Below are positions 25,599-57,346 of a DNA stretch of 64,000 nucleotides, piece by piece; the stretch's first letter is position 1; the number at the start of each line of letters is the position of its first letter. The stretch covers positions 1 through 64,000 of the forward strand of contig NZ_CANMRA010000024.1 in NCBI RefSeq assembly GCF_947500125.1, written 5' to 3'. Source of the DNA: an uncultured Kocuria sp. GTDB lineage: Bacteria > Actinomycetota > Actinomycetes > Actinomycetales > Micrococcaceae. Under the pieces are notes generated by a model. It saw nothing but the letters and a program-made list of their open reading frames with translations. It did no database searches and was not told the DNA's origin. The position numbers and the translations under genes are program-made.

Positions 25599-25614
25599 TA
25601 GGATGAATGCCGTG
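25599..25614 (+). promoter_or_regulatory. -10 box for leaderless sdhC transcription
   Basis: TAGGAT (25599-25604) lies 7 bases before GTG 25612. The in-frame ATG at 25603 overlaps the -10 box and cannot be within a transcript from it, so GTG 25612 is the favoured start. Confidence 0.5.
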
Positions 25615-26361
25615 AACGTGTCCCCCCGCCCCGCCGGCACCGCCCGCCCCGCGCCGGACGGGCTGCTGCCTGCCCTGCCGAACACCGACCTCAAGCTCGC
25701 GATGGCCGGCTCCGGCGCCCTGTTCTCGGGCTACGTGCTGGTGCACCTGCTCGGGAACCTGAAGGTCTACCAGGGCGAGGAGAAGTTCGACGCCTACGCC
25801 GCGTTCCTCCGCACCGCCGGCGCGCCCGTGCTGCCGCACGGCACGGTGCTCTGGACGGCACGCGGCGTGCTCGCCACCGGCCTGGTCGTCCACGCGGGCG
25901 CCGCCGCGGTGCTCACCGCGCGGTCCTGGGCGGCGAACGGGACGCTGCTGCCGCGCACCGGCCGTCGCCCGCGGGGGCGCCGGCGCTCCCCGTGGGAGGT
26001 GGCGAAACGCTCGATGCGCAGCACGGGCGGCGTGCTCGGACTGTTCACGGTCTTCCACGTCCTGGACCTGACCCTGGGCGCCCGGCCCGCCGCGGCCCGG
26101 GGGTTCGAGCACGGCAGCGCCTACGCCAACCTCGTGGCCAGCCTCTCCCGGCCGCCCGTGGCCGCGGCCTACGCCGTCTCCATGGCGGCGCTGGCCGCCC
26201 ACTTGGTGCACGGCATCCCGGAGATCGCCAACGACGTCGGCGTGAGCGGCGACCAGCGGTTCCAGCGGCGGCTGCGGGTCGCCGCGAACGCCTTCGGCGC
26301 CGCGGTGGCCGCCGGCAACACCACGATCCCGGTGGCCGTGCTGACCCGCGCGGTGCGCTGA
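25612..26361 (+). CDS. sdhC: Succinate dehydrogenase cytochrome b subunit
   Basis: The 249-residue membrane subunit resembles the five-helix cytochrome b of the actinobacterial/epsilon-type (B-type) succinate:quinone reductases. Helices include LAMAGSGALFSGYVLVHLLGNL (heme-ligand His in VLVHLLGN), GVLATGLVVHAGAAAVLTA, GGVLGLFTVFHVLDLTLG and a C-terminal pair with AALAAHLVHGIPEIANDVG. It should carry heme b and reduce quinone. Normally sdhA follows directly; here a 138-base repeat stretch follows and then sdhB. Confidence 0.85.
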   Translation: MNVSPRPAGTARPAPDGLLPALPNTDLKLAMAGSGALFSGYVLVHLLGNLKVYQGEEKFDAYAAFLRTAGAPVLPHGTVLWTARGVLATGLVVHAGAAAVLTARSWAANGTLLPRTGRRPRGRRRSPWEVAKRSMRSTGGVLGLFTVFHVLDLTLGARPAAARGFEHGSAYANLVASLSRPPVAAAYAVSMAALAAHLVHGIPEIANDVGVSGDQRFQRRLRVAANAFGAAVAAGNTTIPVAVLTRAVR

Positions 26362-26365
26362 CCCC

Positions 26366-26503
26366 GTGGTGGCCCTCCCCCGGCGTCGGGACGGCCGTCC
26401 TCCGGACGACCTGCTGCGGGCCGGCCTTCTGCGAGACGACATCCTGCGAGACGACCTTCTGCGAGCCGACATTCTTCGAGACGACAAGGACCCGAGCGAG
26501 TGA
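26366..26503 (+). CDS. Possible 45-residue pentapeptide-repeat micro-ORF between sdhC and sdhB
   Basis: This ORF is too short for the track. GTG 26366 lies 4 bases after the sdhC stop, and the frame runs to TGA 26501-26503, which overlaps the GTG of sdhB (GTGA). The product has an Arg/Pro-rich start and then pentapeptide repeats of the form DDLLR, AGLLR, DDILR, DDLLR, ADILR. They come from a 15-bp DNA repeat. It exactly fills the space where the flavoprotein gene sdhA is expected and shows no similarity to SdhA that I can see. It may be a coding spacer that couples translation, or non-coding repeat DNA. Confidence 0.35.
   Translation: MVALPRRRDGRPPDDLLRAGLLRDDILRDDLLRADILRDDKDPSE
26402..26490. 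repeat. 15-bp tandem repeat (about six units) in the sdhC-sdhB gap
   Basis: Units such as CGAGACGACATCCTG, CGAGACGACCTTCTG and CGAGCCGACATTCTT follow each other at exact 15-base spacing from 26402, ending in a partial unit at 26490. The period keeps a reading frame open. Confidence 0.85.
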
Positions 26504-27222
26504 GCACCTTCTCCCTGACCGTGGACGTGTGGCGCCAGCCCTCCCCGGAGGAGCCCGGGGACTTCACGGCCTACGACGTCCCGGACGCGAGCCCGGAGAT
26601 GACCGTGCTCGAGCTGCTCGACCGGATCAACGCGCAGCTGGCGGCCGCCGGCGAGGGCCCGGTGGTCTTCGACGACGGCTGCCGCGAGGGGATCTGCGGC
26701 AAGTGCGGAGTGACGGTCGACGGCGTGGCGCACGGCCCCGAGCGCAACGCCGCGAGCTGCATGCAGCACCTGGGGGCCTACCGGGACGGGGACCGGGTGC
26801 GCATCGAGCCGCTGCGGGCCTCGTCCTTCCCGGTCAAGCAGGACCTCTCGGTGGACAAGAAGGCGCTGCGCATGGTGACGAAGGCGGCCAAGTTCCCGGT
26901 GGGCATGAAGGCCCTCGCCAACGGCGGCTGCATCAGCTGCGGGGCGTGCGTGGCCTCCTGCCCCAACGGCTCCGGCCAGCTCTTCGTGGGCACCCTGCTC
27001 AAGGAGCTGCCCCCGCTGGCCACGGACGACGCCGAGCGCCGGGAGCGTTCCGCCAAGGTGATCGACGCGGCCGAGGAGCAGTTCGGGCCCTGCTCCCTGC
27101 TCGGCGACTGCGTGGAGGTCTGCCCCGCCGGGCTGCCGATCGAGAACCTCTCCGCGGTGGCGCGGGAGAACCTGCGCAACCGCTTCCCGCGCCGGAGCGG
27201 GGACACGCCGCGCCCGCAGTGA
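26500..27222 (+). CDS. sdhB: Succinate dehydrogenase iron-sulfur subunit
   Basis: The 240-residue protein carries electrons from the flavoprotein to the membrane subunit. The [2Fe-2S] ligands are CREGICGKCGV and a later Cys (AASCMQH). The C-terminal domain has CISCGACVASCPNGSG and CSLLGDCVEVCPAGLP for the [4Fe-4S] and [3Fe-4S] clusters. This matches the B-type actinobacterial SdhB. GTG 26500 has AAGGA 10 bases upstream. No sdhA is present in the window, so the partner flavoprotein must be encoded elsewhere or has been lost. Confidence 0.93.
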   Translation: MSTFSLTVDVWRQPSPEEPGDFTAYDVPDASPEMTVLELLDRINAQLAAAGEGPVVFDDGCREGICGKCGVTVDGVAHGPERNAASCMQHLGAYRDGDRVRIEPLRASSFPVKQDLSVDKKALRMVTKAAKFPVGMKALANGGCISCGACVASCPNGSGQLFVGTLLKELPPLATDDAERRERSAKVIDAAEEQFGPCSLLGDCVEVCPAGLPIENLSAVARENLRNRFPRRSGDTPRPQ

Positions 27223-27302: not shown

Positions 27303-28922
27303 ATGAACGAGCGCCCCGGCAGGATCGTCCCGGAGCAGGGCGAGTTCGACTACGAGCCGGAGGACCGCGAACCCCCCCGTCCCGCGGGGAAGACCTGGCT
27401 CTTCCGCGGCCTCGGCGTGCTCCTGGCCCTGCTCGTCTGGTTCCTGCTCGGCGGCGCGGACGTCTCGGCCGACGCCCGCGTGGTGGGCGCGGTCGCCGCG
27501 CTGATGGCGGTCTGGTGGATGACGGAGGCGGTGCCGCTGTCCATCACCTCGCTGCTGCCGATCGTGCTCTTCCCGGTGCTCACCGCGCTCGAGGTGTCCG
27601 AGGTCACGGCGCCCTACGCCAATCCGATCGTCTTCCTGTTCCTCGGCGGCTTCCTGATCGCGATCGCCATGCAGAAGTGGAACCTGCACCGCCGGATCGC
27701 GCTGCTGACCCTGCGCCGCGTGGGCACCCACCCGCGGCAGATCATCCTGGGCCTGATGATCTCCACGGCCTTCCTCTCGATGTGGGTGTCCAACACCGCG
27801 ACCACGCTGATGATGCTGCCCATCGGGCTGTCCGTGCTGACCCTGGTGGTCGAGAACAGCCGCAACGCCGGCACCCGGGCGGAGACCGAGACCATGGGCG
27901 ACGACATCCGCTCCGGCAAGGCCATCAGCGACGTCATCGACGACCGCGACGTGCGCCTGTTCGGCGTGGCCCTGGTCCTGGCGATCGCCTGGGCCGCCAC
28001 CATCGGCGGTCTGGGCACCCTGCTCGGCAGCCCACCCAACGCCATCGTGGCCGGCTACATCAGCGAGGAGCTGGGCCGCACCGTGGGCTTCGCGCAGTGG
28101 ATGATGCTCGGCGTGCCCATCGTGATCGTCTTCATCGGGCTCGCGTGGCTGATCATCACCCGCGTGGTCTTCCGGTTCCACCTGGACGAGGTGCCGGGCG
28201 GCAAGGAGCTCATCAATGAGGAGATCGCCGCCCTGGGGCCGATGAGCAAGGGCGAGAAGACGGTCCTCGCCGTGTTCGTCACCGCGGCGTTCTTCTGGAT
28301 CGTCCCGGGACTGCTCGCCGGCATCGGCGACATCGGCGAGCAGCTGCCCTGGCTGGACCTCTTCGACGACACGGTGGTCGCCATCGGCGCCGGCGTGCTG
28401 CTCTTCCTGCTCCCCGGCGACAAGCAGGGGAACATGACCCTGGAGTGGAACGACGCCGAGGAGGGCCTGCCCTGGGGCGTGCTCCTGCTCTTCGGCGGCG
28501 GTCTGTCCCTGGCCGCCGCCGTGGCCGGCACCGGTCTCGACGCCTGGTTCGGCGCACAGGTCAGCGGACTCGGCGCCCTGCCGATCGTCCTGCTCCTGGC
28601 CGCGGTCGTGCTGATCGTCCTGCTCCTGACCGAGATCACGTCCAACACCGCCACGGCCGCCACGTTCATCCCGATCCTGGGCGGGGTCGCCGTCGGGATC
28701 GGGGTGGACCCCATGACCTTGCTCATCCCGGCGGCGCTCGCGGCCACCTGCGCGTTCATGCTCCCCGTGGGCACCCCGCCCAACGCCATCGTCTTCGCCA
28801 CCGGCCAGGTCAAGATCGCCGAGATGGTGCGCGGCGGCGTCGTGCTCAACATCGTGGGCGTCATCCTGATCACGATCTTCACCGTGCTCATCGGGCCGTT
28901 CGCGCTGGGCCTGGTGATCTAG
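27303..28922 (+). CDS. SLC13/DASS-family sodium:anion symporter
   Basis: The 539-residue transporter imports di- or tricarboxylates or sulfate with sodium. It has about a dozen transmembrane helices. The two family repeat motifs with SNTATT-type loops are visible: MWVSNTATTLMMLPIGLSV and LTEITSNTATAATFIPILGG, plus GTLLGSPPNAIVAG and LPVGTPPNAIVFATGQV. The N-terminal 35 residues are charged and cytoplasmic. ATG 27303 has GAGGTGG 5 bases upstream. Dicarboxylates (succinate) would suit its place after the sdh genes, but sulfate is also possible. Its stop overlaps the convergent ATPase stop by 4 bases. Confidence 0.9.
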   Translation: MNERPGRIVPEQGEFDYEPEDREPPRPAGKTWLFRGLGVLLALLVWFLLGGADVSADARVVGAVAALMAVWWMTEAVPLSITSLLPIVLFPVLTALEVSEVTAPYANPIVFLFLGGFLIAIAMQKWNLHRRIALLTLRRVGTHPRQIILGLMISTAFLSMWVSNTATTLMMLPIGLSVLTLVVENSRNAGTRAETETMGDDIRSGKAISDVIDDRDVRLFGVALVLAIAWAATIGGLGTLLGSPPNAIVAGYISEELGRTVGFAQWMMLGVPIVIVFIGLAWLIITRVVFRFHLDEVPGGKELINEEIAALGPMSKGEKTVLAVFVTAAFFWIVPGLLAGIGDIGEQLPWLDLFDDTVVAIGAGVLLFLLPGDKQGNMTLEWNDAEEGLPWGVLLLFGGGLSLAAAVAGTGLDAWFGAQVSGLGALPIVLLLAAVVLIVLLLTEITSNTATAATFIPILGGVAVGIGVDPMTLLIPAALAATCAFMLPVGTPPNAIVFATGQVKIAEMVRGGVVLNIVGVILITIFTVLIGPFALGLVI

Positions 28923-45357: not shown

Positions 45358-45389
45358 CCGGCACCGGCCCCCTCCGGCGCTCCCCGACC

Positions 45390-45449
45390 TTCCCGCCGTT
45401 CCCGCCGTCCCCGCCGTCCCCGCCGTCCCCGCCGTCCCCGCCGTCCCCG
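45390..45449. repeat. 9-bp tandem repeat (CCCCGCCGT)n
   Basis: About six to seven units of CCCCGCCGT (first ones slightly varied) run up to the GGAGG ribosome-binding site of the intact metE-like gene. The C-rich array lacks start or stop codons of interest and looks like a variable-number repeat. Confidence 0.8.
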
Positions 45450-57252: not shown

Positions 57253-57274
57253 TCCGCTCCTGATCAGGTTCCCC

Positions 57275-57346
57275 GCCGGGTTCCCGGCCTACTTCTCCGC
57301 CCGGTTCCCGGCCTGCAGCTCCGCCGGGTTCCCGGCCTGCTGCGGC
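57275..57346. repeat. 24-bp tandem repeat (three units) crossing the paaI stop codon
   Basis: Units GCCGGGTTCCCGGCCTACTTC, GCCCGGTTCCCGGCCTGCAG and GCCGGGTTCCCGGCCTGCTG each extend to 24 bases (57275-57298, 57299-57322, 57323-57346). The paaI stop (57289-57291) lies in the first unit. Confidence 0.8.

Follow-up and report, generated by a model that had tools for sequence, protein, structure and literature searches.

A conserved SdhC–SdhB pair without sdhA in the genus Kocuria

The stretch of DNA that we analysed (the window, of 64,000 nucleotides) belongs to a Kocuria genome whose nearest relative is K. polaris, with an SdhB 93% identical to its own. The forward strand of this window carries an sdhC (25603..26361; TGA stop at 26359–26361) that encodes a cytochrome b558-family membrane subunit of 252 aa, followed by an sdhB (26500..27222; GTG start at 26500) that encodes a three-cluster iron–sulfur subunit of 240 aa. 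In profile searches both products exceeded the cut-offs of their families, with 108.2 bits against TIGR02046 for SdhC (cut-off, 96) and 256.5 bits against NF005746 for SdhB (cut-off, 243). The best structural match of SdhB was chain B of PDB 9LAY (E = 4.9e-65), and the structure predicted by AlphaFold for this subunit was too poor for use (pLDDT, 53.5). Downstream on the same strand lies a gene for a DASS-type Na+/dicarboxylate or sulfate symporter (27303..28922; PF00939, 5.8e-75). A preliminary description of this DNA had stated that sdhA is absent between sdhC and sdhB, and such is the case: the two genes are separated by 138 bp (26362..26499) with no sdhA inside, which absence turned out to be genus-wide.

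The subunits of complex II normally occur together. Following a suggestion in the same description, we searched the rest of the genome for a B-type sdhA by means of profiles of the B-type models and found none, the matches being the A-type SdhA on contig C33, which is part of a complete sdhCDAB operon, the L-aspartate oxidase on contig C21, and one 20-bit fragment. A KstD-like flavoprotein of this genome that matched PF00890 was also considered as the missing SdhA, and was discarded as an unrelated protein. No B-type sdhA was found, either, in G003, a single-contig genome whose SdhB is 92% identical to that of the window, nor in any of 11 near-complete Kocuria genomes, among which are the genome studied here and two single-contig ones; these statements of genome-wide absence come from sequence searches of the genomes.

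The arrangement proved to be common to the genus. In the comparison with related genomes, sdhC was directly upstream of sdhB, with no sdhA, at 26 of the 26 loci of this type (hereafter CB), each one from a Kocuria genome where the pair was found; a 350-contig draft, G023, contained the sdhCAB type only and is outside those 26. As the same junction recurs in another 25 genomes, of which several are assembled as a single contig, we could rule out the assembly error contemplated in the preliminary description, and the adjacency at all 26 loci equally rules out a recent local loss. When 72 SdhB proteins were placed in a tree, the CB SdhB from the 26 genomes constituted one clade with a support of 100 and a long branch of 1.27, and at all 33 non-Kocuria, order-level outgroup SdhB loci examined sdhA was directly upstream of sdhB. 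Among the 396 genomes of the order and 395 of the class that we sampled, no CB was seen outside Kocuria, the presence of sdhA having been checked at the top order-level loci only; the other order- and class-level SdhB matches reached at most 270 bits, versus 456, and spanned longer DNA, as would be expected if the segment between the two Fe–S domains were present. Within the rosea clade, omega was approximately 0.01–0.36 for the pair. The dS estimates for this GC-rich genome were close to saturation or depended on the method, and in distant pairs the omega of sdhC rose up to 0.7. Even with dS poorly estimated, these sequence comparisons indicate that the CB proteins are under purifying selection within the rosea clade and are being maintained. 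To judge from the sequences, then, CB is a conserved sdhA-less SdhCB module across Kocuria.

The residues expected to bind cofactors are retained. All 11 Fe–S cysteines were kept in the 26 aligned CB SdhB proteins, and His 48, 97, 152, and 200 of SdhC, which align with the heme ligands of class B, were present in every complete CB sequence as well as in the SdhC of the sdhCAB type (CAB). As in class-B complex II (sdhCAB or frdCAB), of which the QFR of Wolinella succinogenes (2BS2) is an example, CB would accordingly comprise one b558-family membrane subunit with four putative heme-ligand histidines, and an iron–sulfur subunit with the cysteine motifs of a 2Fe-2S, a 4Fe-4S, and a 3Fe-4S cluster. 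Unlike that complex, CB lacks the flavoprotein gene from the operon at 26/26 loci, forms a separate clade, and has an SdhB from which 17–18 residues are deleted between the two Fe–S domains, again in 26/26 proteins. Between the D-x-x-V-D and 4Fe-4S motifs lie 24–25 residues in all the CB SdhB proteins, as opposed to 42 in every measurable CAB SdhB (38 of 46 proteins; the remaining 8 were not recognised by the motif pattern) and 41 in the A-type SdhB of the same genome, so that the standard inter-domain segment of a class-B SdhB is not present in CB. Among the proteins measured, this deletion and the sdhA-less locus coincide without exception. Of the 76 alignment columns that hardly vary among SdhA-linked SdhB proteins, moreover, 18 are altered in CB SdhB. 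With respect to SdhC, we observed an RPRGRRR motif that is CB-specific and nearly invariant, and that in one Kocuria clade (L163, L164, and L167) is preceded by an insertion of up to ~60 residues.

Full sdhCAB operons with an SdhA above the cut-off occur in 13 Kocuria genomes, to which may be added one in pieces (G002) and a fragment in G023. These operons are composed of the same subunit families as CB, but include sdhA, possess an SdhB only ~50% identical to that of CB with the spacing of 42, and are sporadic in their distribution. On the CB tree, sdhCAB switches between present and absent at least six times, with CB retained throughout; this pattern, together with the absence of sdhCAB from the 11 near-complete genomes, indicates that CB and sdhCAB are separable units; both the SdhB deletion and the cofactor-ligand residues are the same in Kocuria with or without sdhCAB. 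We found no gene that was a constant neighbour of the CB pair across the Kocuria loci. The DASS-type symporter is downstream of sdhB in six rosea-clade genomes, which position gives a faint hint at dicarboxylates. In four genomes (G001, G007, G017, and G024) CB is located just downstream of sdhCAB, with a DASS symporter between the two. In four species (L165, L168, L169, and L170) we noted the order sdhCAB, a convergent DASS symporter, a small ORF, a membrane protein, and then CB, with the sdh units ~5 kb apart.

The spacer itself contains a tandem repeat (26398..26486) with a TRF score of 127 for a 45-bp period and of 94 for a 15-bp period, which makes it the highest-scoring array of the whole window; the control, a set of 20 order-3 Markov sequences of 64 kb each, gave best scores of 51–84 per sequence. 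The approximately six 15-bp units noticed beforehand correspond to five full ones, which from 26405 read DDLLR, AGLLR, DDILR, DDLLR, and ADILR, plus a sixth, DDKDP, that passes over into the leader of sdhB and bears the ribosome-binding site, AAGGA (26486..26490), 9 nt upstream of the GTG. Across the 26 Kocuria, sdhC and sdhB overlap at TGATG in some genomes and are separated in others by ~25–74 bp, or by as many as 138 bp, as observed here. Within the rosea clade, the spacers measure 25–52 bp in five species and are expanded in three (the genome of the window, K. polaris, and G003), and every one of them, irrespective of length, has AAGGA or GAGGA at its end, ~9 nt away from the start codon of sdhB. 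It had been proposed that sdhA was lost at this site and the gap healed by repeat expansion; nevertheless, the junction is repeat-free in the Kocuria clades other than rosea, where there is a TGATG overlap or a short plain spacer, for which reason we reject the repeat as a scar of the loss. Elsewhere in the genome the repeat gave scattered single-unit matches only, with 2–3 mismatches, and we found neither a plasmid copy of the spacer nor a promoter or terminator within it. The spacer RNA is less stable than shuffled sequence (z = +2.35), which low degree of structure fits an accessible ribosome site. Intergenic minisatellites with short in-frame tandem units, of lengths that differ between close species, are found in GC-rich actinobacteria; the present repeat is like them, and differs in that its end coincides with the sdhB ribosome-binding site. 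Apparently, then, we are dealing with a neutral minisatellite that expanded recently upstream of that site, without a separate function.

The repeat is spanned by a frame of 45 codons (26366..26503, forward strand), which, exactly as the preliminary description had it, begins at a GTG 4 bases past the stop codon of sdhC and, at its own stop, overlaps the start of sdhB (GTGA). That position, which recurs in G003, and the preservation of the frame by the 15-bp units are what might be expected of a translated small subunit or of a translational coupler between sdhC and sdhB. Yet the frame is open in only two of the eight rosea-clade genomes, the one studied here and G003; in K. polaris it continues into sdhB, and the five species with spacers of 25–52 bp lack it, so that the conservation of frame, start, and stop that a small-protein gene should exhibit is lacking. 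Furthermore, no Shine–Dalgarno sequence precedes its GTG, and its product has no match in Pfam with an E up to 10, hence none to the pentapeptide repeats of PF00805 either. Besides, a 15-bp unit preserves any frame by simple arithmetic. We therefore abandon the idea that it encodes a new small partner: a translated role is highly improbable, the frame is probably no gene, and its best reading is that of an incidental one.

As regards other arrays, the nadB gene for the L-aspartate oxidase on contig C21 contains an in-frame 21-bp/63-bp tandem array (L005:2874–3051; TRF, 166), which suggests that this genome forms in-frame minisatellites more generally. Two more strong tandem arrays are located in the window at 45381–45449 (9 bp × 7.7) and 57273–57340 (24 bp × 2.8).

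Since the pair is intact throughout the genus, it probably operates together with another enzyme. We consider it probable, from the sequences compared, that CB is a vertically inherited SdhCB electron-transfer module whose own flavoprotein gene was shed before the Kocuria radiation and whose partner is encoded elsewhere. A class-B sdhCAB copy would have lost the flavoprotein gene before Kocuria radiated, and the remaining pair would from then on have been inherited vertically. SdhC and SdhB would constitute a two-subunit, membrane-bound module similar to that of class B, with SdhB holding three Fe–S clusters and SdhC two b hemes. The module would shuttle electrons between menaquinone, at SdhC, and a redox partner, whether a flavoprotein or of another kind, whose gene lies at a different locus; and that partner would dock on SdhB without needing the deleted segment. 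The cofactors bound, the reaction with the quinone, and the existence of a partner in trans are all predicted features of this scheme. With less assurance, we put forward that CB might be a class-B complex II core that, upon losing the SdhA-linked segment of SdhB, was re-purposed as an SdhA-independent quinone oxidoreductase with a partner from outside the SdhA family.

The nature of that partner is the point at which the alternatives diverge. In three small genomes (G004, G016, and G026), a single strong PF00890 (FAD_binding_2) protein, the A-type SdhA, was the sole SdhA-family flavoprotein detected, which leaves as the partner either that protein or one not of the SdhA family. The former option would imply a hybrid complex II, in which CB would borrow the A-type SdhA of sdhCDAB to function as a succinate:menaquinone oxidoreductase or a fumarate reductase via the diheme class-B anchor, a role with which the dicarboxylate-type symporter downstream in six rosea-clade genomes would be in keeping. 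We regard such a hybrid as rather unlikely, however, for every SdhA-partnered SdhB measured, including the A-type protein of the same genome, maintains the spacing of 41–42 residues that CB has reduced to 24–25, and the CAB-invariant columns lost by CB point in the same direction; the deletion thus makes a partner of a non-SdhA family preferable. If CB served instead as another anchor to which the B-type SdhA encoded by sdhCAB could attach, to become a mere leftover wherever sdhCAB was lost, its location directly downstream of sdhCAB in four genomes would be readily understood; but CB is intact in the 11 near-complete genomes without a B-type SdhA, despite the repeated changes in sdhCAB, and the deletion and the ligands are alike whether sdhCAB is present or not, all of which renders that role improbable. 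As to the notion that CB is the decaying remnant of an operon after the loss of sdhA, the absence of the catalytic subunit might invite it, but intact frames, invariant cofactor residues in 26 species, and purifying selection in the rosea clade make it barely credible. The reading that we maintain, accordingly, is that the Kocuria CB is a real, genus-wide, SdhA-less variant of the class-B complex II core, to which the repeat and the micro-ORF are incidental.

With respect to known systems, the L-aspartate oxidase is a soluble SDHA-only homologue, that is, a flavoprotein without SdhB and SdhC. In a 2023 review on complex II, six classes and such soluble SDHA-only homologues are described, and a search of that text by terms retrieved no SdhA-less SdhB–SdhC form (PMC10238741). 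The flavocytochrome c fumarate reductase treated in that review likewise illustrates that the subunits of complex II are separable in evolution, though as the reverse of CB, with a flavoprotein without SdhB or SdhC (PMC10238741). Nor did we find in the open-access literature an SdhC–SdhB module without SdhA, in Kocuria or in general. The genus-wide presence of CB with its diagnostic SdhB deletion offers a way of testing which portion of SdhB is required for SdhA, and likewise whether respiratory modules can be re-used with new electron donors; it further serves as a warning that the two genes, although labelled succinate dehydrogenase by automatic annotation, are not sufficient to encode that enzyme. 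Finally, as to the sdhCAB operons, the SdhB of seven Kocuria (L105, L107, L108, L111, L114, L116, and L117) grouped with its counterpart from a different genus of the same family (G029, L033) and apart from the other Kocuria sdhCAB, which grouping suggests a horizontal transfer or a separate inheritance.
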